Position numbers and translations under genes: made by a program
NCBI GenBank assembly: GCA_021781455.1
Contig: JAJXWV010000019.1
Location: 1 to 40,034 of the forward strand
Length of the DNA: 40,034 nucleotides
Direction: 5' to 3'
DNA from: Acidobacteriota bacterium
GTDB taxonomy: Bacteria > Acidobacteriota > Thermoanaerobaculia > Gp7-AA8
The notes under the pieces: generated by a model
What the model was told of the DNA's origin: nothing
Seen by the model: only the letters and a program-made list of their open reading frames with translations
The model's database searches: none
Part shown: positions 2,081 through 28,909 of the stretch, piece after piece
How the letters are laid out: each line of letters starts with the position of its first letter
Position numbering within the stretch: the stretch's first letter is position 1

Positions 2081-3925
2081 ATGTGCGGAATCTACGGAAT
2101 GATCGCCGCGCGCGCCGAGGCGCTGCGCTATCCCGAAGTGGCGGAGCTCATGGGCGAAGCGCTGCGCCATCGCGGTCCGGACGGGCGGGCCATGTTCAGC
2201 GAGGCGCAAGCCGTGATCGGCACCGAGCGGTTGCGGATCATCGATCTGCACGAGCGCGCCGACCAGCCCTTCGCCTCGCCGAACGGTGACGTCTGGCTGG
2301 AGTGCAACGGCGAGATCTACAACGCGGTGGCCATCCGTGCGCGCTATCCCGAGTATTCGTTTCGCTCGGCGTCCGATGTGGAGAGCATCCTCCCTTTGTA
2401 TCTCGAGCATGGCGTCGATGCGGTCGCGCAGCTCGACGGCATGTTTGCTCTGGCCGTCTGGGACAACCGCGATCGCACGCTGACGCTCGCGCGCGATCGC
2501 GCCGGCGAGAAGCCGCTCTTCTACGGCCGGGTCGGCGACGAGATCCTCTTCGCCTCCGAGCTGCAGTGTCTCCTGCGTCATCCGTCGCTTCCGCGCGAGC
2601 TCGACCCTGTGGCCATCGCCGAATATCTGAAGCTCGGCTACGTTCCCGAGCCGCGCACGCCGTTCCGCGCCGTGCGCCGCGTACCGGCGGGAACGATCAT
2701 GCGTTTCCACGAAGACGGCGAGGAGACGATCCGCTACTGGGATCCGGCGCTTTTCTCGACGGAGCCGGTCAGCGACCGCGACGCCATCGCCAGAACGCAG
2801 TGGCTGATCGAGAACGCCGTCGAGAAGCAGGTCCGGTCCGATGTCCCGGTGGGTGTGTTCATCAGCGGCGGGATGGACTCGTCGATCCTGGCCACGCTGG
2901 CCTCCCGCGTGATCGGTGTCGACAAGGTGCACACGTTTTCGGCGCAGTTCGCCGAGGCGTCGTACGACGAGAGCGGGGACGCGGCGCTGCTGGCCAACCG
3001 GATGCGCACGATGCACGTCCCCGTGCGCACGGACGAGGAGACGCTCCGCGAAGCGCTCGAGCACGTGACGAAGGGCGTGGCCGAGCCGCTCGCCGATCCA
3101 GCCATCCTGCCGACGTTTCTGCTGGCGCGCACGGCGCACAAGCACGTGAAGGTGATCCTCAGCGGCGAAGGCGCCGACGAGCTTTTCGGCGGCTATCCCA
3201 CGTACCTCGGCCACAAGGTCGCCCCGTACTACGACGGCATCCCTGCGCCCCTGCGGGCTCTGCTGCGCCGCGGCGTGCAGAGCGTGCCGCCGTCGGGGAA
3301 GAAGGTCACCCTCGAGTTCCTTCTCAAGCGGTTCGTATCCGATGCCGAGCGCCCCTGGATCGAGCGGCATCTGGCGTGGTTCGGCACCGGGCTCAGTGAC
3401 GAGATCTTCGCGGGGCAAAGGCCGGATATGCCGGAGTTGCGCGAGGGTGCCGAGGCGACCAACGCGCTGGAAGGGGCCATGCTGCTCGACTACCGGAGCT
3501 ATCTGCGCGACAACCTCCTGGTGAAGGTCGACCGCGCCACGATGCTGTCGTCGGTCGAAGCACGGGCACCGTATCTCGACCGGTTCGTGAGTGCATTCGC
3601 CCTTTCATTGCCGGCGGATCTTCGCGTGCGGCGCCTCACGACGAAGTGGGTGCTCAAGAAGGCCGCCGAGAAATGGCTCCCGCACGACGTCATCTACCGA
3701 CGCAAGCGCGGCCTGAGCGTGCCGATCGCCAACTGGATCAACCACGGCCTGCGCAGCGAAGTCGACCGCCTGCTCGCACCCCAGCGTTTGCGCGATCAGG
3801 GGATCGTGAACGAGCCGTATGTCAGCAGGCTTCTCGCCGAGCACCGCAGCGGTCGCGCCAATCACGCCAAGGCGTTGTGGGCGGTGATCATGCTGGAGTA
3901 CTGGATCGAGAACTGGGCGGCCTGA
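2081..3925 (+). CDS. asnB: Asparagine synthase (glutamine-hydrolysing), class B
   Basis: A 614-aa cytoplasmic enzyme that transfers the amide of glutamine to aspartate or to an aspartate-like acceptor, using ATP. The N-terminal class II glutaminase domain begins MCGIYG, so Cys2 is the nucleophile, and it contains the ALRHRGPDG and CNGEIYN motifs. The synthetase domain has the pyrophosphate-binding loop SGGMDSS near residue 264 and the GEGADELFGGY motif near residue 365, both intact. Length is typical of the AsnB family, including members in polysaccharide and exosortase gene clusters. The ATG at 2081 is fixed by the required Cys2. No good Shine-Dalgarno sequence is seen because the heptad array occupies the leader. 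The preceding envelope glycosyltransferase suggests, without proving, a role in amidating a surface polymer. Confidence 0.92.
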   Translation: MCGIYGMIAARAEALRYPEVAELMGEALRHRGPDGRAMFSEAQAVIGTERLRIIDLHERADQPFASPNGDVWLECNGEIYNAVAIRARYPEYSFRSASDVESILPLYLEHGVDAVAQLDGMFALAVWDNRDRTLTLARDRAGEKPLFYGRVGDEILFASELQCLLRHPSLPRELDPVAIAEYLKLGYVPEPRTPFRAVRRVPAGTIMRFHEDGEETIRYWDPALFSTEPVSDRDAIARTQWLIENAVEKQVRSDVPVGVFISGGMDSSILATLASRVIGVDKVHTFSAQFAEASYDESGDAALLANRMRTMHVPVRTDEETLREALEHVTKGVAEPLADPAILPTFLLARTAHKHVKVILSGEGADELFGGYPTYLGHKVAPYYDGIPAPLRALLRRGVQSVPPSGKKVTLEFLLKRFVSDAERPWIERHLAWFGTGLSDEIFAGQRPDMPELREGAEATNALEGAMLLDYRSYLRDNLLVKVDRATMLSSVEARAPYLDRFVSAFALSLPADLRVRRLTTKWVLKKAAEKWLPHDVIYRRKRGLSVPIANWINHGLRSEVDRLLAPQRLRDQGIVNEPYVSRLLAEHRSGRANHAKALWAVIMLEYWIENWAA

Positions 3926-3949
3926 GGCGGCCCACCATCGTGCCGCCGT

Positions 3950-4009
3950 CACTCTGAGCCGGCGGAGAAGAGTCTCTTACCGGGACGATCAGCAGGCCGA
4001 AGACTCTTC
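3950..4009. repeat. Palindromic repeat with GAAGAGTCT arms
   Basis: GAAGAGTCT (3967-3975) and AGACTCTTC (4001-4009) form an inverted pair, preceded by CACTCTGAGCC and followed by GGGTTACG. It lies just after the asnB stop. It resembles interspersed extragenic palindromes and could form a hairpin in the mRNA tail. Confidence 0.5.
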
Positions 4010-4071
4010 GCAGGGTTACGCCGCTCCGCCAACTGTTCGTGTGGGGAGGGCTTTCCAGCCGGCCACCGGGG

Positions 4072-4736: not shown

Positions 4737-4885
4737 CTGCTGAGTGCGTGGCAGATCCTCGTGCCGGGTCCCCCAGCCTTCTGTCGGACACTGCGTGCCC
4801 TCGCACGCTCATGCGGATCGCTCGCTCCGGCGGCCTGACGGCCGCCGCTAAATGCTTTCGGCGGCTCCGCCGCCTTTCGAGGTGA
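4737..4885 (-). repeat. Half copy of the MITE-like element
   Basis: The reverse complement matches the left half of the element at 14176-14405. It shares the terminus GGCGGCGGAGCCGCCG, TTAGCGGCGGCCGTCAGG, and interior blocks CGAGGGCACG, CCGACAGAA and GAGGATCTG. Only one terminus is present here, so it is a truncated or one-ended copy. A heptad array begins about 70 bp further on. Confidence 0.7.
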
Positions 4886-4952: not shown

Positions 4953-5022
4953 ACTCAGTACTCAGCACTCAGTACTCAGCACTCAGTACTCAGCACTCAG
5001 TACTCAGCACTCAGTACTCAGC
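4953..5022. repeat. Strictly alternating heptad array (ACTCAGT/ACTCAGC)
   Basis: Ten heptads alternate perfectly between ACTCAGT and ACTCAGC, giving five copies of a 14-nt unit. The single inverted partner is the short GTGCTGAGCAC around 4931. The array ends 8 nt before the stop codon of the lipoprotein gene that reads toward it. Confidence 0.9.
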
Positions 5023-5030
5023 ACTGGCTT

Positions 5031-5600
5031 CTACTCGTGCATGTCGAGTGCGAAGACGTTCCCGATGGCCCAGATGCCGTTGCGGTTGCCGAGCGGGATC
5101 CAGTACCACTGCGACTCGCGGCCGCCGAGGGAGTAGCGGCCGAAAAGGCCGGCCTCGTTCTTGGTGAAGGGATTGACGAACGGGGAGGAGAGCTCGACCA
5201 CCATGAGGTCGACGTGGCGCACCGGATCGATCTTGTCGATCGGGATCCATGAGCACGTTTTCGCATTGGCGACGTCGATGGGCATCGGCCTGAGGGAAGC
5301 GCTGATGACCTGGGCGGCTGCGGAGAGCTCTGCGTCCTTGCTGTAGAGATGCGCCAGGGAGCGGAGCGAGTTGCCGTTGACCAGCGGTTGGGTGGTCGAG
5401 ACGATGCCCATCGGCGTGTCGGAGGCCATCCCTTCGCCGCGAAGCTTTCCGCAGAACGAGTCGACGATCGCCGGCGGCAGCGTCGTCCAGTCGGGGGCGG
5501 CCATCGGCGCTTGCGGTTTGGATGCGCATCCAGGCAGCAGCAGGATCAAGAACAGACCGCAGACCGCAGACCGCAGACCGCCAGCACGACTGTTGATCAT
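5031..5600 (-). CDS. Small predicted lipoprotein, function unknown
   Basis: A 189-aa protein with an N-terminal signal ending in the lipobox LLPGC (Cys25), so it should be lipidated and anchored in the envelope. I chose the ATG at 5600 because AGGAAG lies 5 nt upstream and it places the hydrophobic segment at the N-terminus; an upstream in-frame ATG at 5762 would bury it. The mature part contains the segments WTTLPPAIVDSFCGKL, SLGGRESQWYWIPLG and NGIWAIGNVFALDM and matches no family I can name. The hydrophobic part of the signal (about residues 8-15) is encoded by four CAGACCG heptads read in reverse. The codons for the start of the gene are partly duplicated at 5710-5739. Confidence 0.75.
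   Translation of the reverse strand: MINSRAGGLRSAVCGLFLILLLPGCASKPQAPMAAPDWTTLPPAIVDSFCGKLRGEGMASDTPMGIVSTTQPLVNGNSLRSLAHLYSKDAELSAAAQVISASLRPMPIDVANAKTCSWIPIDKIDPVRHVDLMVVELSSPFVNPFTKNEAGLFGRYSLGGRESQWYWIPLGNRNGIWAIGNVFALDMHE
5553..5580. repeat. CAGACCG x4 heptads within a signal-peptide coding region
   Basis: Four perfect consecutive copies of CAGACCG lie inside the lipoprotein gene. Because 7 is not a multiple of 3, each unit is read in a different frame and yields the peptide GGLRSAVCG. Confidence 0.9.
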
Positions 5601-5709
5601 TTGCACTTCCTGTCGAAGTCTCACAGCAATCGAATGAGGTACGGCTGCGATTCTCGCATGTTGTCGTGTTCTCAGCTCGAGCGAAGACGGCCGACCGCCG
5701 ACCCCCAAG

Positions 5710-5739
5710 AACGACTGTTGCTCATTCGCACGTCCTGTC
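5710..5739. repeat. Second copy of the lipoprotein start region
   Basis: This segment matches 5585-5614 at about 27 of 30 positions, starting ACGACTGTTG and ending CCTGTCG. It includes the reverse-strand ATG and the purine-rich site of the real gene. The two copies are 125 bp apart in the same orientation, so the upstream copy looks like a duplicated, non-functional gene start. Confidence 0.75.
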
Positions 5740-5771
5740 GTGTCATCCGTTCGACCTCGCAACTTCTTGCG

Positions 5772-5848
5772 TTCCGTCTTCCGTCTTCCGTCTTCCGTCT
5801 GCCGTCTGTGGTCTGTGGTCTGTGGTCTGTGGTCTGTTGTCTGTGGTC
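5772..5848. repeat. Eleven-unit drifting heptad array
   Basis: Eleven consecutive heptads fit T(T/G)NNGTC: TTCCGTC four times, TGCCGTC, TGTGGTC four times, TGTTGTC, TGTGGTC. Unit identity changes stepwise along the array while phase is kept exactly. It lies between the helicase stop (5875) and the lipoprotein start region. Confidence 0.9.
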
Positions 5849-5874
5849 TTCGTTCTGCCCTCTCGCAAGCAAAC

Positions 5875-8316
5875 TCAAAACACGATCCTCAATTGCGGCG
5901 CAGTCCGATTCTGGAAGAAATCGCGGATCTCCAGTGCGGGCTTTTTCGAGACGAGCTCGCGCGGCGACTCTTCGTACCAGTCGGCAGGGAAGTAGCGCGT
6001 GTAGATCTCCTGGGTGAAGCGGCGGCAGAGGAGGGCGATCACGCCGATGTCACGCTCGCTGCGGATGACGCGGCCGGCCGACTGCACGACGCGGGTCATG
6101 CCGGGAATCAGGTAGGCGAACTCGAATCCGGCACCGTACTGCTCGTCGTAGTACTGCTTGAGCAGCTCCTGCTCGAAGCTGACCTGCGGCAGTGCCGGCC
6201 CGACCACCATCACCCCGGAGAGCATGTCGCCTTCGTAGTCGATGCCCTCCGCGTACATCCCGCCGGAGACGGCCAGGATGAGATTGCCGGGGGCGGGACG
6301 GTCGCGAAGGATCTGCAGGACGGCGTTGCGCTCGTAGTCGGTCATGTCGGTGCGCTGGACGGTGACGCGCTTCCCGATGGGCGGGATGCGCCCGCTGACT
6401 TCACGCAGGAAGGCATAGCTCGGGAACAGTGCCAAAAAGTTCCCGTCGTGAGCCTCGGCGATGGCGGCCACGTTCTCGGCGATCCGGTCGTAATGGTTTG
6501 CGCGCTGCTTGTATGTCGTGTCCACTTCCGGGATGACGACGATCTTGCGGTTCTCGCGCGGGAAGGGAGTGGGCAGCGAGAGCTCGACGGTACGGTCGCT
6601 GGGGAAGCCTAACGTCTTGCGGTAGAAATCGAACGGCTCGAGCGTGGCCGACAACGCGATCGTGGTGTGCGCCGACTCGAAGATGCGCCCGAGGAATCGC
6701 GAAGGATCCTTGCAGAAGATCTTCAGCTTCAGGCCTTCCGGAGTCTTTTCGATGATCCGCGCCAGCTCGTCACCGTCCTCGGTCATGAGGTTGGCGAACT
6801 TGACGAGCTTGAAATAGAAATCGACCAGCGGGTCGTCCTCTTCGACGATGCGGTTCTCGATCTTCCAGGCGATGTAGGCGAGGACGATGCGCTCCCACTC
6901 GGCGCGCTGTTCGATGAAGAGCTCGCGGTCCGGCTCGCAGAGCGCCTGCTTCTGTCCGGCCTCCTCGTCCAGCGACTCCGCCAGCCGGTGAAACTCGTCG
7001 CGGAGCATCTCCAGGAGATCTTCCCATCCCTCGATCCAGCAGCTGCGGCCGCGCAGGTGGTTGCGGATGCGGTCGAACGTCTCCTCGTGGATTTCGGGCG
7101 AGTAGTAGCCGCGGCCGCGATCGACGAGGTTGTGGGCCTCGTCGACGATGAGCACGCAGTCGCCGAAGTCGCTGTCCTGCTGGTACGACTTGAGCCCGAC
7201 GTACGGGTCGAAGATGTAGTTGTAGTCGCAGACCACCACGTCGGCCTGCTCGATCAGCTCCAGCGAGACCTCGAACGGGCAGACCTCGGTCGACTTGGCC
7301 ATCTCGAACGTGATGTCGGGATCGAAATAGCTCATCTCCGTCGTGATCCGGGAGAGCAGCCCGCTGCGGTCCATCTTCTCGGAATAGCGCGCCGCGTAAG
7401 GGCAGAAGTCCTCGTGGCAGATCATTTCCGAGTGGGCGCACATCTTCTGCTTGGCCCGGATGCGGAGGACGCGGAAGGCGCCGTCGTTGAGCATCTCCAG
7501 CGCCTTGATGGCCGCGTCCTGCCCGAGCGTCTTCGAGGTGAGGAAGAAGAGCTTCTTGCCGGTGCGCAGCGATTCGCGGACCGCCGGAAAGAGCGCGCCG
7601 ATGGTCTTGCCGATGCCGGTGGGCGCGGAGACGAGCAGGGTCTCGCGCTCGCGGACGGCGTGCGCGACGGCGTCGACCATCTCCGGCTGGAACGGCCGCA
7701 TGGCCGGGTACGGGAACACCAGCGAGTCCGCGTAAGCCTTCTTGGCGTCACGCAGGGCGCCGGCCGATTCGATCTGGTCGACGAGCGCTTCCGCGCTGGC
7801 CAGGAGCGTTTCGCCCACGCTCTGCCGGTCGAACTCCGCGTCGACCAGCCTGGTCTCGCCGGTGAGCAGGTCGATCAGGACGAGCTGCGGGGCGAAGTCG
7901 AATCCGTCGAAGTCGGGCTGGTTGCAGAGAAAGAGCGAGTAGAGCAGCAGCTGGTAGAGGTGCCGGTGGAGCTTGTCGGAGCGGTAGAGCGAGTCGAGCT
8001 CCAGGTCGAAGTGGATCGACTTCACCTCTTCGATCGAGACGCGGTGGTTGTCCCGGTCGACGGAGAGGCCGTCGATGCGCCCGGTGATGGTGATGTTCCA
8101 TCCGCGAACCGCCAGGCGATGGACCACGTGCACCTCGGCGCGGTAGTTCGGGTCCTCGCCCATGCGCAGCTCGGCGCGCCGCGTGTGAATGTTCTGGCCG
8201 ATCCACATGCGCCGGAACCCATCGCCGCGCTCCACGCCGATCCGCCGGTAGGTCGACTCATAGACGAGGTCGCCGACCGCGCAGACGATTTCCTTTTTTT
8301 CGTGGTCGACGCGCAT
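5875..8316 (-). CDS. XPD/DinG-like Fe-S DNA helicase with N-terminal nuclease-like domain
   Basis: An 813-aa superfamily 2 helicase that should unwind DNA 5' to 3' using ATP and a 4Fe-4S cluster. Residues about 1-200 resemble a PD-(D/E)XK nuclease fold, with the GRIDG...EEVKS motif carrying the typical D, E and K. The helicase core has the Walker A loop SAPTGIGKT, the cluster cysteines in KMCAHSE, MICHEDFCPYA and EVCPFE, the DEAH box in IVDEAHNLVDRG, and motif VI QSAGRVIRSERD. The nuclease-helicase order resembles Cas4-like/DinG fusions in which the nuclease motifs may bind an end or be structural. No Shine-Dalgarno sequence is visible. TACCAT sits 7 nt before the ATG, suggesting a leaderless message. 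The cyclase-like gene lies upstream on the same strand, 135 bp away. The role is probably repair. Confidence 0.88.
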   Translation of the reverse strand: MRVDHEKKEIVCAVGDLVYESTYRRIGVERGDGFRRMWIGQNIHTRRAELRMGEDPNYRAEVHVVHRLAVRGWNITITGRIDGLSVDRDNHRVSIEEVKSIHFDLELDSLYRSDKLHRHLYQLLLYSLFLCNQPDFDGFDFAPQLVLIDLLTGETRLVDAEFDRQSVGETLLASAEALVDQIESAGALRDAKKAYADSLVFPYPAMRPFQPEMVDAVAHAVRERETLLVSAPTGIGKTIGALFPAVRESLRTGKKLFFLTSKTLGQDAAIKALEMLNDGAFRVLRIRAKQKMCAHSEMICHEDFCPYAARYSEKMDRSGLLSRITTEMSYFDPDITFEMAKSTEVCPFEVSLELIEQADVVVCDYNYIFDPYVGLKSYQQDSDFGDCVLIVDEAHNLVDRGRGYYSPEIHEETFDRIRNHLRGRSCWIEGWEDLLEMLRDEFHRLAESLDEEAGQKQALCEPDRELFIEQRAEWERIVLAYIAWKIENRIVEEDDPLVDFYFKLVKFANLMTEDGDELARIIEKTPEGLKLKIFCKDPSRFLGRIFESAHTTIALSATLEPFDFYRKTLGFPSDRTVELSLPTPFPRENRKIVVIPEVDTTYKQRANHYDRIAENVAAIAEAHDGNFLALFPSYAFLREVSGRIPPIGKRVTVQRTDMTDYERNAVLQILRDRPAPGNLILAVSGGMYAEGIDYEGDMLSGVMVVGPALPQVSFEQELLKQYYDEQYGAGFEFAYLIPGMTRVVQSAGRVIRSERDIGVIALLCRRFTQEIYTRYFPADWYEESPRELVSKKPALEIRDFFQNRTAPQLRIVF

Positions 8317-14175: not shown

Positions 14176-14405
14176 GGGCGGGTCGAGGCGGCGTAGCCGC
14201 CGTAAGAACTTAGCGGCGGCCGTCAGGCGGCCGGTGCCAGCGATTGCGTGGGCGCACGAGGGCACGGACGTGCCCGACAGAACGGGAGCAGACCCGAGGA
14301 TCTGTCGCGCGCTCCGCGCGCTCGGACGTTGGGTTCGCCTGATCGAACGGCGGCCTGACGGCCGCCGCTAAATTCTCTCGGCGGCTCCGCCGCCTCGACC
14401 CGCCC
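14176..14405. mobile_element. MITE-like element with 58-bp inverted termini
   Basis: A 230-bp non-coding element begins GGGCGGGTCGAGGCGGCG and ends with its inverse. The terminal inverted repeats (14176-14233 and 14348-14405) differ at about five of 58 positions by eye. The centre includes a GGCAC-GGAC-GTGCC palindrome. Half of it recurs at 4737-4885. No transposase is encoded, so it would have to be mobilised in trans if it is a MITE. No target-site duplication is visible because the element is bordered by heptad arrays on both sides. Confidence 0.7.
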
Positions 14406-14468
14406 ACTCAGTACTCAGTACTCAGTACTCAGTACTCAGGACTCAGGACTCAGGACTCAGGACTCAGC
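14406..14468. repeat. Nine-unit heptad array with block change
   Basis: ACTCAGT four times, ACTCAGG four times, then ACTCAGC once. The blocks of identical units suggest stepwise amplification. It begins at the exact end of the MITE-like element and ends 45 bp before the thymidine kinase start. Confidence 0.9.
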
Positions 14469-14512
14469 ACTTTTGTTATCCTGCTCCTCAGCACGTTCAT
14501 CTCGGAGGAACC

Positions 14513-15847: not shown

Positions 15848-17254
15848 ATGACAGCACACTGCCGGCTGATCGTCCCGTTTCTCCTCACCGCTCTTCTCGT
15901 CGCCCCTTTGAGCTGCCGGCGCGCCGACGGCGAGGCCGAGGATCCGGTCGACCGTGAAGCGCGCGACGCGTTCGTCGCATATCTGAAGATCGACACCACG
16001 AATCCGCCCGGCCGCGAGACCGCCGGGGCGAAGTTTCTGCAGCAGCTGCTGCAGAAGGAAGGGATCGAGGCGCGACTGGTCGGCTCCGATCCGCAGAGGC
16101 AGTTGGTCTATGCACGCCTGCGCTCCGGCTCGACCGAAAAGGCGCTTCTGCTCCTGCACCACATCGACGTCGTCCCCGCCGTAGCGGCCGAATGGACCAG
16201 GCCGCCGTTCGGCGGAACGATCAGCGACGGCTACATCTGGGGCCGCGGAGCGCTCGATGTCAAGTCGCTGGGAATCGCGGAGGCCATGGCCCTGATCGAG
16301 CTGAAGCGGCGTAACGCTCCGCTGCGGCGCGACATCGTCTTTCTGGCCGTGGCCGGCGAGGAGACCGGAGGAGCGCAGGGAACCGCGGAGCTGCTGCAGA
16401 AGAATCCGGAGCTGTTCGACAACGTCGGCTACGTGATCAACGAAGGCGGCTACACCGAGACCATCGTCGATCGCGTGGCCCTCTGGGGAATCGAGGTCCA
16501 GGAGAAAGTGCCCCTCTGGCTTTCGCTTCACGCCAAGGGGACGGCCGGTCACGCGGCCTCGCCGCCCGACGACGGCGGCGCGCTGGGAAAACTGGTGCGC
16601 GCTCTCGATGCGGTGCAGCAGATTCCCACTCCCTACCGGCTGACTCCCGACGTGGAGCGTTACTTTCACCAGGTCGGGGCGACGCGCCATGACGAGCGGG
16701 GAGAGATCATGAGGAACATCGCCGGCGAGCTGGCGGGCGAACGGCTGGGACGCGTGCTCACGCCGTCCTATCGATCGCTGCTGCACGACACCATCGCCAT
16801 CACGCGCGTCGAGGGCGGCAGCTCGGTCAACTCGCTGCCGGCCAACGCCGTCGCGGACATCGACATCCGGCTGCTGCCTGACGAGACCACGGACGCGATG
16901 CTGAAGCAGGTCCGCAACGCCGCCGGCAAAGACGCCGACGTGGAAGTGCTGCTGGCCGGCGCGCCCACGCCCGCCACGAGCGAGAACACCGACCTCTACC
17001 GCTCCCTGGAAAGCGTGCTGAGACGGGCGGAGCCTTCGTCGCGCGTGGCGCCCATCGTCGGCGCGGGGACGACCGACAGCCGTTTCTTCCGCGCTCGCGG
17101 AATCGCCGCCTACGGTGTCTCGCCCTTCAAGGTGAACTACTACGACGCCGGAACGGCGCATGGCATCGACGAGCGAATCCGCACGCGGTTCTTCGAGGAA
17201 GGCGTCAGGGTCATGCGCGCCATCGTCAGCGACTTCTGCGAGCGCAAGAGATGA
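15848..17254 (+). CDS. M20 family metallopeptidase, probably exported
   Basis: A 468-aa di-zinc peptidase/deacylase related to carboxypeptidase S and ArgE/DapE enzymes. The N-terminal hydrophobic segment ends in APLSC, which is either a weak lipobox or a Sec signal, so it should act in the periplasm. Metal ligands are visible in LLHHIDVVP, GRGALDVKS, the catalytic AGEETGG, NEGG, and TAHGIDER near the C-terminus. The dimerisation domain (about residues 215-350) lies between them with GTAGHAASPPDDGGAL. Length is normal. ATG 15848 is preferred; TTG 15845 adds one residue. The stop overlaps the ATG of the next gene by 4 nt (ATGA), so the two are translationally coupled. The natural substrate is unknown, possibly a peptide or N-acyl amino acid. 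Confidence 0.88.
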   Translation: MTAHCRLIVPFLLTALLVAPLSCRRADGEAEDPVDREARDAFVAYLKIDTTNPPGRETAGAKFLQQLLQKEGIEARLVGSDPQRQLVYARLRSGSTEKALLLLHHIDVVPAVAAEWTRPPFGGTISDGYIWGRGALDVKSLGIAEAMALIELKRRNAPLRRDIVFLAVAGEETGGAQGTAELLQKNPELFDNVGYVINEGGYTETIVDRVALWGIEVQEKVPLWLSLHAKGTAGHAASPPDDGGALGKLVRALDAVQQIPTPYRLTPDVERYFHQVGATRHDERGEIMRNIAGELAGERLGRVLTPSYRSLLHDTIAITRVEGGSSVNSLPANAVADIDIRLLPDETTDAMLKQVRNAAGKDADVEVLLAGAPTPATSENTDLYRSLESVLRRAEPSSRVAPIVGAGTTDSRFFRARGIAAYGVSPFKVNYYDAGTAHGIDERIRTRFFEEGVRVMRAIVSDFCERKR

Positions 17255-19170
17255 CCAGCACCGGCCGGCGACGTGCCGAGTACGCCATCGCCATGGCCGT
17301 CATCGTCGCCGCCGCGCTGGTGGTGTTCGCCCCTCCTCTGGCGAAGCAGGAGATCTTCACCTTCCGCGATCACGCCGACTACTTCACGCCGATGCGCCTC
17401 TTCACGGCGCTCCATCTGCGCGCCGGCCGGCTGCCGCTCTGGAATCCTTACAACGGCTCCGGCGAGCAGTGGCTGGCCAACCCGCAGACCGGCATCTTCT
17501 ATCCGCCGACGTGGCTGATGGCGTTCATTCCCTTCAGCACGTCGTACGTCCTCTACCTTTTCCTGCACTCGCTGATCCTCGGCACCGGAGCGTGGGCGCT
17601 GTTTCGCCGGAGCGCGGGCATGCCCGCGGCGCTGGTTGGGTCGGTGGCCCTGATGTTCAGCGGTCCCGTGCTGTCGCTGCTGGACGTGCAGAACAACTTC
17701 ACCACGTTCGCCTGGCTGCCCTGGATCATCTGGAGCGCGCTGCGGGATCGGGAGCGCATCTGTGGCAACGGAGCTCCTGCCGCTCCCGAATCGAGCGGCA
17801 CCGGCCAGAGTACCGGCGCCACACGGGGCGGTGCCTCGTTCCTGCCGCGGCTGTCGGCGGTCTTCCTGGCCCTGGCGTTTCTGGCCGGCGAACCGTTCTT
17901 CGCGGCGGTGGCTGCGATGGTTTACGCGGTCGTGGTGCGGAAGGCGCGCACGATTGCCGTGGCTGCAGCCGGATCCGCGGCGTTGTGCGCGGTGCAGCTG
18001 CTGCCATTCCTGGACATGCTCGTCGGCAGCGACCGCTTCGGAGGCTTCGTCGGCGCCGACATCCTGCGCGACTCGATGCGTGCAGGGGACTGGTTGCGCT
18101 GCATCGCGCCACCGCGGCTGGTTCCGGCGGGCATGCGCGCGGAGCAGTTCGTGCTGGTTCCGTACATGGGAGTGGTGGTGGTGCTTCTGGCGATCGCCGG
18201 AATCGTGGTCTTGATTCGCGCCGGCGAGTACCGCCGGGTGACTTCGTGGGGACTGCTTGCGGCCGTGGCGGCGCTGATGGCCACGGGCCCGCACTGGATC
18301 GCGTCGCTTCCCCTGACTGTCTTCCGCTATCCGTCGCGATGCATGCCATTCGTCGCGCTGGCGGCGGTGGCGTTCGCCGTGGCTGGCTGGGACCGCCTGC
18401 GGCGCGGGAGCGCGATCGTGGACGCGGTGCTGATCATCGCCATCGTGGCGGACCTGGTCATCGCGGCGCGTCCGCTGCTGGCCACGGCGCCGCTGGAGCG
18501 TGCGCGGCTGGCGTATCCGGCGTTCATCGGCAGGAACACCAAGATCCTGCAGATCTACGGAAATGAGCCGTTGCTGAGCGGCGGGCGCGCGGCGTGGCTG
18601 TCCGGATATCTCAATCTGTACGACCGCCGGTTCGAGGCCTCGACGCCCGCGCCGCTGGCGCCGAGAGCCTACACACGCGTCTGGACGGCGGCGCAATCGA
18701 ATTTACAGCTGTTGCGGCTGATGGGGATCGGATACGTCCTGGCTTCCAGCGAGATGCCGCCGCCGTTCGAACTGGTGACGCGCGTGGGAGGCGTGCTCAC
18801 GTATCGGGTGCCGTCGCCTTTCCCGTTGGCGTACCTGCGAACGGCCAGCGGAAAGATCGACGTGCCTCAGGCCCTCTCGCTCGACGCCTCACGCGCGCGG
18901 GTGAGAATTGCCAGCGCCACCGGCGGCCTGCTCGTGCTGACGCAGAACGACGTGCGTGGCTGGCGCGTGTCCGTGGATGGGCGGCCCGCAGAAAAGAAAC
19001 TTGATCTCGGCACGTTCCGCAGCGTGGATGTTCCCCCGGGGACGCACGAAATCACCTGGGTTTATCGGCCGGTATCACTTCCCGCCGGTGCGTTTCTGAC
19101 GCTGGTGGCGCTGTTCTGGCTGGCCTTCGGCGTGCGCGTCGAGAGAGCGTCTCGCCACGCGCGCACATGA
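17251..19170 (+). CDS. YfhO-like polytopic membrane protein (GT-C type)
   Basis: A 639-aa membrane protein with about twelve hydrophobic helices and a soluble C-terminal domain. The first periplasmic loop has TFRDHADYFTPMR and LPLWNPYNGSGEQWLANPQTGIFYPP, characteristic of YfhO-family proteins, which are thought to transfer sugars from polyprenyl carriers to envelope polymers such as teichoic acids in Firmicutes. The C-terminal NDVRGWRVSVDGRPAEKK and DVPPGTHEITWVYRP motifs are also typical. A low-complexity Gly/Ala/Ser/Thr-rich stretch of about 30 residues near residue 175 interrupts the membrane region. It overlaps the M20 peptidase stop by 4 nt and must be co-translated. The acceptor in a Gram-negative setting is unknown. 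Confidence 0.85.
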   Translation: MTSTGRRRAEYAIAMAVIVAAALVVFAPPLAKQEIFTFRDHADYFTPMRLFTALHLRAGRLPLWNPYNGSGEQWLANPQTGIFYPPTWLMAFIPFSTSYVLYLFLHSLILGTGAWALFRRSAGMPAALVGSVALMFSGPVLSLLDVQNNFTTFAWLPWIIWSALRDRERICGNGAPAAPESSGTGQSTGATRGGASFLPRLSAVFLALAFLAGEPFFAAVAAMVYAVVVRKARTIAVAAAGSAALCAVQLLPFLDMLVGSDRFGGFVGADILRDSMRAGDWLRCIAPPRLVPAGMRAEQFVLVPYMGVVVVLLAIAGIVVLIRAGEYRRVTSWGLLAAVAALMATGPHWIASLPLTVFRYPSRCMPFVALAAVAFAVAGWDRLRRGSAIVDAVLIIAIVADLVIAARPLLATAPLERARLAYPAFIGRNTKILQIYGNEPLLSGGRAAWLSGYLNLYDRRFEASTPAPLAPRAYTRVWTAAQSNLQLLRLMGIGYVLASSEMPPPFELVTRVGGVLTYRVPSPFPLAYLRTASGKIDVPQALSLDASRARVRIASATGGLLVLTQNDVRGWRVSVDGRPAEKKLDLGTFRSVDVPPGTHEITWVYRPVSLPAGAFLTLVALFWLAFGVRVERASRHART

Positions 19171-23118: not shown

Positions 23119-23243
23119 TGTCATCCCGAGCGTCAGCGAGGGATCTGGGTGGCGCGCTGCAGCTCTGATTCTTGCCGCCACCCGCCTGCATGTTCACCCT
23201 GCGCGCCCCATCCTTCCAGATCCTCGCTGACGCTTCGAAGAAA
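23119..23243. repeat. Palindromic interspersed element, third copy
   Basis: The left arm TGTCATCCCGAGCG continues with TCAGCGAGGGATCTGGGTGG. The right arm contains CCAGATCCTCGCTGACGCTTCG. It is the same family as 736-841, with a longer unrelated centre. Confidence 0.8.
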
Positions 23244-23279
23244 CTCCCAGTGTTTATGCGGGCTCTGGCGTTCGTGGCC

Positions 23280-23305
23280 CTTCTCCCCGCCACAGCGGGG
23301 AGAAG
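23280..23305. repeat. Perfect 11-bp hairpin CTTCTCCCCGC
   Basis: CTTCTCCCCGC and GCGGGGAGAAG surround a CACA loop. It is followed by GGTGCCGAAGGCGGATGAGGGG, a pattern common to extragenic palindromes in many bacteria. It could act as a terminator after the TPR gene, though no U-tract follows directly. Confidence 0.6.
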
Positions 23306-23377
23306 GTGCCGAAGGCGGATGAGGGGCCTTCTTTTGAACGAGAACGAGACCCCTCACCCCGGCCTGGTCACTGCGTG

Positions 23378-27668: not shown

Positions 27669-28763
27669 ATGCGTCAACGCTACGGCTATCTCGACCCCGA
27701 CCTGATCCGCCAGCTTCTGGCCGAGATGGGGCTGCGCCGGCTCTTCAACCAGCTGCTGCTGCAGACCGGCGGCGACGTCGAAGAAGCGATGGAGTGGATG
27801 CGCCAGCTTCAGCAGCGCGGATTCATCGACCCCGAGGTCGACCTGGAAGCTTTCTTCGCGCAGCTCGTCGAGGAGAACATCCTCGGCCAGGACGCGAACG
27901 GCAATGTCGTCCTGGCGGCGGGAGGGGAGCGCCAGATCCGCCGCGATGCCCTCGACGAGATCTTCGGCGGCCTGGAGAAGTCGATGACCGGCTATCATTC
28001 CGTCAACGACGCCGGACAGGGAACCGAGCGGCTCACCGAAACGCGGCAATACCAGTTTGGCGACGACCCGATGTCGATCGACTCCATCCACTCCCTCCAG
28101 AATGCGATGAGGCACAACGATCCGTCGGATCCGATCACGATCACCGAAGAAGACCTCGAGGTGTTCGAGACCGAGCACAACTCGAACTGCGCCACCGTGG
28201 TCATGATCGACATCTCCCACTCCATGATCCTGTACGGAGAGGACCGCATCACGCCGGCCAAGAAGGTGGCGCTCGCGCTCACGGAGCTGATCCTGACCAA
28301 GTATCCGAAGGACTCCATCGACGTGCTGCTGTTCGGCGACGAGGCCATCGAGGTGCCCATCTCCCAGATTCCGTACGTGAAGGTCGGCCCTTTCCACACG
28401 AACACGAAGGCCGGCCTCGAGCTCGCCCAGCGCATCCTGCGGCGGCGGCGCCACGCGAACAAGCAGATCTTCATGATCACCGACGGGAAGCCGTCCGCCC
28501 TCCACGAGAACGGACGGCTGTACACGAATTCCTTCGGGCTGGACATGAAGATCGTGAACCGCACTCTCGAGGAAGCGGACCGCTGCCGGCGAGCCGGGAT
28601 TCCGATCACGACTTTCATGCTGGCCACCGATCCGATGCTCGTGAATTTCGTCGAGCAGCTCTCCAAGATCAACCGCGGACGGGCGTTCTACTCCTCGCCC
28701 GACCGGTTAGGCGAGTACATCCTGGCCGACTACATCCGGAATCGGCGGAAGTTCGTGCACTAG
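27669..28763 (+). CDS. VWA-domain protein, chelatase-D/CoxE-like partner of the MoxR ATPase
   Basis: A 364-aa cytoplasmic protein. The N-terminal third is helical and acidic (LLQTGGDVEEAMEWMRQLQQRG). The VWA domain occupies about residues 175-350 with the metal-ion-dependent adhesion site DISHSM, a Thr in TNTKAGLELA and the third-loop Asp in MITDGKPS, so metal binding looks intact. VWA proteins of this sort pair with MoxR/BchI-type ATPases; the ATPase gene is upstream on the same strand. ATG 27669 is preferred since it begins the conserved part. AGGA 5 nt upstream, which could serve as the ribosome site, is itself part of an ACTCAGG heptad. The stop TAG directly touches a palindromic element. 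Confidence 0.87.
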   Translation: MRQRYGYLDPDLIRQLLAEMGLRRLFNQLLLQTGGDVEEAMEWMRQLQQRGFIDPEVDLEAFFAQLVEENILGQDANGNVVLAAGGERQIRRDALDEIFGGLEKSMTGYHSVNDAGQGTERLTETRQYQFGDDPMSIDSIHSLQNAMRHNDPSDPITITEEDLEVFETEHNSNCATVVMIDISHSMILYGEDRITPAKKVALALTELILTKYPKDSIDVLLFGDEAIEVPISQIPYVKVGPFHTNTKAGLELAQRILRRRRHANKQIFMITDGKPSALHENGRLYTNSFGLDMKIVNRTLEEADRCRRAGIPITTFMLATDPMLVNFVEQLSKINRGRAFYSSPDRLGEYILADYIRNRRKFVH

Positions 28764-28869
28764 GAGTGCGGGCGTCCCGCCCGCATGCGCCGGGCGTCTC
28801 GCCCGGCGCCGCTTGCGATTCACCGCGGGACGAGACGTCCCGCGGTTGCGGACGGGACGTCCGCACTCC
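28763..28869. repeat. Triple-hairpin palindromic element at a stop codon
   Basis: The outer arms (28763-28785 and 28847-28869) are a 23-bp inverted repeat with two mismatches (GGAGTGCGG...). Inside are two further palindromes, CGCCGGGCG/CGCCCGGCG and CCGCGGGACG/CGTCCCGCGG. The left end begins at the last base of the VWA stop codon TAG. It may act as a terminator. The remaining 40 bp to the next start show nothing else. Confidence 0.75.
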
Positions 28870-28909
28870 AACCGGAATGTTCGCCGCGGCCTGAGCGGTT
28901 CCGCCTCGC

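Follow-up and report, generated by a model that had tools for sequence, protein, structure and literature searches.

The DNA analysed here (the window) is a 40,034-nt stretch of an Acidobacteriota genome (Thermoanaerobaculia). A tandem array of 11 heptads was identified within it, in the 274-bp spacer that separates a helicase gene from a lipoprotein gene, both encoded on the minus strand. The helicase gene lies directly upstream on the same strand, with its stop codon ~26 bp from the array. The features of this locus are as follows:

5031..5600, minus strand: lipoprotein-like gene encoding 189 aa, counted from the ATG at 5600 (relatives have homologues with a lipobox-like cysteine 3' of the helicase gene)
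5553..5581, minus strand: partner (3') arm, CAGACCGx4 on the plus strand (protein segment GGLRSAVCGLF, translation MINSRAGGLRSAVCGLFLILLLPGCAS, fold)
5555..5615, minus strand: copy A of a duplicated 62-column segment, comprising the lipoprotein gene start (ATG 5600) and the heptad arm (alignment)
5679..5740, minus strand: copy B of this segment, in which the heptads have decayed and a separate ATG (5725-5723) is present (alignment)
5684..5706, minus strand: putative degenerate second heptad arm, GAA then GACGGCC GACCGCC GACCCCC on the plus strand (sequence, predicted fold)
5772..5849, minus strand: focal 11-heptad array, the 5' arm of an inverted pair (repeat scan, sequence reading, minus-strand RNA fold)
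5875..8316, minus strand: XPD/DinG-type helicase gene (domain matches to Helicase_C_2, DEAD_2, DEAD and HBB)

The initial annotation described the array as 11 heptads drifting stepwise in perfect 7-nt phase, which was confirmed at positions 5772-5848 at a level far beyond chance. The unit series (TTCCGTC x4, TGCCGTC, TGTGGTC x4, TGTTGTC and TGTGGTC) contains no phase breaks, period 7 continues one base further, to 5849, and the period-7 match score was 58.5, compared with a maximum of 12.5 among 25 windows simulated with a second-order Markov model. Units of one type were shown to cluster along the array (4 changes of type; p = 0.019 by permutation), and the summed step size between units also departed from expectation (p = 0.001). 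Read on the minus strand, the array (AGACCA, CAGACAA, CAGACCAx4, CAGACGGx2, AAGACGGx3, AA) represents a chain of variants with an AGAC core, which is also the core of the genome-wide CAGACCG family. Unit positions 1 and 5-7, previously noted as kept, are indeed invariant in all units; nevertheless, this is not significant for the focal array alone, since all four inferred substitutions are expected to cluster within three adjacent positions of the seven ~19% of the time by our own combinatorial count. With 11 units, the array exceeds the genome-typical length of ~4. GGG is absent from TTCCGTC, TGTGGTC and their complements, which are thus not G-rich, quadruplex-capable units, and an Rfam search of the window returned no matches.

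In the predicted minus-strand RNA fold, approximately four heptads of the CAGACCA part pair with the array at 5553-5581 (z = -4.2), across a gap of 190 nt, most pairs being more closely spaced (median about 20). As read from the sequence, this partner arm is part of the predicted signal peptide of the lipoprotein, MINSRAGGLRSAVCGLFLILLLPGC, a portion of which it encodes. A palindromic repeat within protein-coding sequence is similarly represented by the Rickettsia palindromic elements, which are not heptad-based. Furthermore, copies A and B of the gene start region are ~82% identical, and their alignment without the heptads scored 46, compared with a shuffle maximum of 23. The decayed heptads of copy B, the outer copy, are suggestive of a degenerate second arm, one heptad of which is predicted to pair with the AAGACGG block.

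Arrays of this kind are abundant. In total, 191 heptad and 52 octad arrays were identified in 823 kb of this genome, other periods being almost absent, and extrapolation from the 191 gives ~1,100 heptad arrays per genome; 17 period-7 arrays are located in the window. As called by a simple codon-usage gene caller, 169 of the 191 heptad arrays (88%) are intergenic, while only 15% of the DNA is non-coding (85% coding). Strong heptad arrays frequently occur in inverted, hairpin-forming pairs (119/191; 74 pairs), the polarity of which is uniform, with one exception, among the pairs listed. Arm lengths peak at 30-32 nt, the favoured arm consisting of four units and 3 additional nt (31 nt for heptads and 35 nt for octads). 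Taken modulo 7, the length of heptad arrays is most often 3 (p = 1.6e-10), and that of octad arrays modulo 8 likewise peaks at 3 (mode 35; p = 3.9e-6), and the same heptad length was observed in other members and genera of the family (34/80). Array lengths therefore show a preferred step, in contrast to the absence of one that characterizes slippage.

A CAGACCG hairpin in L091 (3459-3565) lies mid-gene (called gene 2917-4056), with the reading frame apparently still open. More dispersed repeats, not of the heptad type, are located at window positions 4780-4876, 14186-14396, 28763-28870 and 23232-23363, and these match many sites in sister species G001, several of them on both strands.

Variation among units was shown to be focused on particular positions. 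In the ACTCAGN arrays of this genome, 145 variant observations fall at N, compared with 21 at the remaining six positions combined, and such focusing is also seen in the CAGATCG and AATTGAR families. Other long arrays of the genome resemble the focal array in being composed of identical-unit blocks and alternating 14-mers. Since these patterns, together with whole-unit copy changes, are products of unit duplication, slippage was counted as a driver. It is thus well supported that the focal drift reflects point changes around the AGAC core, carried to neighbouring units by whole-unit duplication. The earlier proposals of a process other than plain slippage of one unit, and of a partial motif, hold in part: the sister species retains the phase, certain positions of the unit carry most of the variation and the AGAC core is kept, but slippage is itself a main part of the process. 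At window positions 14406-14471 and 4953-5025, the block and alternating modes were observed to coexist (ACTCAGTx4, ACTCAGGx4, ACTCAGC; and strict ACTCAGT/ACTCAGC alternation).

Templating during expansion, which had also been suggested, was not borne out: the two arms of hairpins share a unit family (Fisher, p = 1e-7), but in the ACTCAGN family of this genome the unit order is not mirrored between arms beyond chance (p about 0.09). In genome G016, one mixed-unit pair constitutes an exact 38-nt palindrome with exactly mirrored arms. Mixed-unit hairpins of that genome (GAATGAA GAACGCA GAACGCA GAATGAA GAATTCA; L110 17955-18054 and L111 3929-4029) display a similar unit order at several loci, with differing loops.

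An exact 31-mer, ACTCAGGACTCAGCACTCAGGACTCAGGACT, is present in 24 copies in this genome and 26 in the sister species, as a single copy in each of three further genera, and in none of the genomes outside the family; its surroundings were read for part of the copies. In sampled DNA of both species, 35 hairpins of this unit family were identified by pattern and read singly, and their loops (compared by eye) and flanks were found to vary from site to site. By-eye inspection revealed no target-site duplication.

The orthologous focal locus of the sister species carries about 7 in-phase CAGACCG/CGGACCG units past the helicase stop, compared with 11 here, and its signal peptide likewise includes a partner arm, read in the same frame (RSAVCGL). 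Whole-unit, in-phase length change, as is characteristic of slippage, was also observed in two further orthologous spacers. The conservation of phase that had been predicted for relatives was therefore found, although slippage predicts it equally. On the question of whether change affects entire units or individual positions, the answer was both: positions mutate, while units are gained, lost and spread. Among orthologous spacers of the sister species, some share the hairpin but differ in its unit count, others hold a different hairpin, built of heptads, octads or 9-mers, and some have no hairpin at all; for example, window positions 17250-17288 are empty, whereas the sister species has a hairpin at L182 6029-6146. 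An octad array (AGTTGCTG/AGTTACTG) in the sister species (L184, between 376 and 1286) resembles the heptad AGTGCTG/AGTACTG with one additional T.

In other genera, the focal spacer holds inverted arrays of GATGGCA, GAAGGCA, GGATGAA or an ACAGAGG-type 8-mer, which often code for part of the signal peptide, and some genomes possess an ordinary signal peptide without repeats. In genome G014, a GGATGAA-type hairpin is situated in a lipoprotein signal peptide (L057 10436-10620), in two tandem copies. On a helicase tree with six inner branches open and two poor outgroup rows, the least-cost count for array presence requires four changes, of which well-supported branches make two unavoidable, with two truncated contigs (L062 and L063) scored as array-less though the spacer is not seen in them; these four changes point to repeated gain or loss.

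The fixed arm length and the turnover between species suggest REPIN-like dispersal, but no mobilising enzyme was identified: neither a transposase, a reverse transcriptase nor a target duplication could be linked to it. We consider it probable that the focal array belongs to a heptad-hairpin element that was dispersed in a REPIN- or MITE-like manner and whose arms subsequently evolved by unit slippage. The focal array would be one arm of such an element, i.e. two inverted tandem arrays flanking a unique loop. New elements would arise in hairpin form, each arm comprising about four units and a further 3 nt, and would spread from one intergenic site to another; this dispersal is inferred from the recurrence of the 31-mers, the preferred length of the arms and presence or absence between species. 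Once settled, arms would gain or lose whole 7-nt units in register, and point mutations at tolerated positions would be copied to neighbouring units by duplication, producing stepwise blocks; both of these steps are well supported. A later duplication of the gene start may have created the second, decayed partner, so that each block of the focal array may face a partner of its own. Against the copying of whole elements, loops at the inspected sites are dissimilar even though the arms are alike. A bolder reading, to which we give limited credence, is that of an undescribed class of mobile hairpins with arms of exactly four units plus a closing trinucleotide and a unit of 7 or 8 nt that varies from genus to genus, where the machinery would write the arms rather than the loop and the hairpin could supply signal-peptide code on arrival.

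Ordinary microsatellite slippage by itself, in which chance short direct repeats expand, a length of 7 nt suits the polymerase and drift results from mutation plus local unit duplication, would account for the whole-unit steps, blocks and alternating 14-mers, while the closing 3 nt could mirror a short microhomology that seeds slippage. Heptamers are also the commonest long SSRs in many bacteria (PMC4679880, PMC4692102), for which a polymerase-footprint idea has been attributed to Mrazek 2007, as cited in these two papers. As a complete explanation it is nevertheless rather doubtful, as it does not by itself account for why arrays form inverted pairs of fixed polarity, why heptads and octads share the four-units-plus-3 length, or why an identical 31-mer recurs at 24 sites. 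Selection on a partial motif, in which the arrays would act as binding sites or RNA structures and function would maintain their core positions, would fit the position-focused variation of the ACTCAGN, CAGATCG and AATTGAR families and the hairpin potential seen in the focal fold. It is considered quite unlikely, however, as related genera have wholly different units at the same locus, arrays are freely gained and lost in sister spacers, and copying of a few master variants could equally give the position bias. Moreover, a role in transcription termination is disfavoured, because arrays are not preferentially found in convergent spacers (0.22, compared with 0.37 of divergent spacers).

True REPINs moved by a RAYT transposase represent a very unlikely explanation. 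Like REPINs (Bertels and Rainey 2011, PMC3116915), the heptad hairpins are dispersed inverted doublets with conserved arms, less conserved, variable spacers and a mostly extragenic distribution; unlike REPINs, their arms consist of tandem heptads of variable length and unit, with no consistent RAYT association. The strongest Y1_Tnp match of this genome does adjoin six arrays of several unit families within 2.1 kb (L224 534-2077), but the remaining 13 Y1_Tnp loci have one array in all, and general enrichment of arrays near Y1_Tnp genes was not found (7 in 69.6 kb, six of which at one locus). Moreover, G016 (98% complete) contains heptad hairpins yet yielded no Y1 transposase or reverse-transcriptase matches, whereas ten Y1_Tnp matches occur in G036, 40 kb of which contained no heptad array. 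A RAYT link was therefore rejected. Reverse transcriptase was likewise rejected as a template source, as no more than 6 of the 18 genomes of the family gave matches, with none in G016 and others.

The closest known kind is represented by the inverted heptamer repeats of Xanthomonas (GGGAATC; Rehm et al. 2015, PMC4692102), of which there are about 185 per genome, including 70-75 inverted pairs, with 83% kept between two xanthomonads. As in Xanthomonas, the arrays described here consist of tandem 7-nt units, mostly four, are often arranged in inverted pairs, are mainly intergenic (about 90% there; 169/191 here), combine variable and fixed unit positions and vary in length between relatives. They differ in their many unit families within one genome and their octad sisters, a focal unit without the G-tracts needed for quadruplexes, a higher density (about 230 per Mb, compared with about 185 per genome), a rapid turnover from species to species and the location of arms within signal peptides. 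The Beggiatoaceae TAACTGA (PMC4679880) and cyanobacterial heptanucleotide repeats are similarly abundant intergenic heptamer arrays, but are direct repeats of essentially one unit, and the Beggiatoaceae genome studied has one inverted repeat among 170 repeat sets (PMC4679880). A search of the open literature found no published heptamer repeats of Acidobacteria.

The focal array is thus not a local curiosity, but one of many hundreds of hairpins and arrays in this soil bacterium, and across the genomes compared these hairpins and arrays evidently come and go between related species. To our knowledge, heptamer repeats have been recognized in bacteria for decades, yet no mechanism has gained acceptance. 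In each of a few related genomes, the family described here offers natural examples estimated at about a thousand, together with a founder length common to heptads and octads, presence or absence in sister species and arms that act as signal-peptide code, which makes the question of slippage versus mobility testable.
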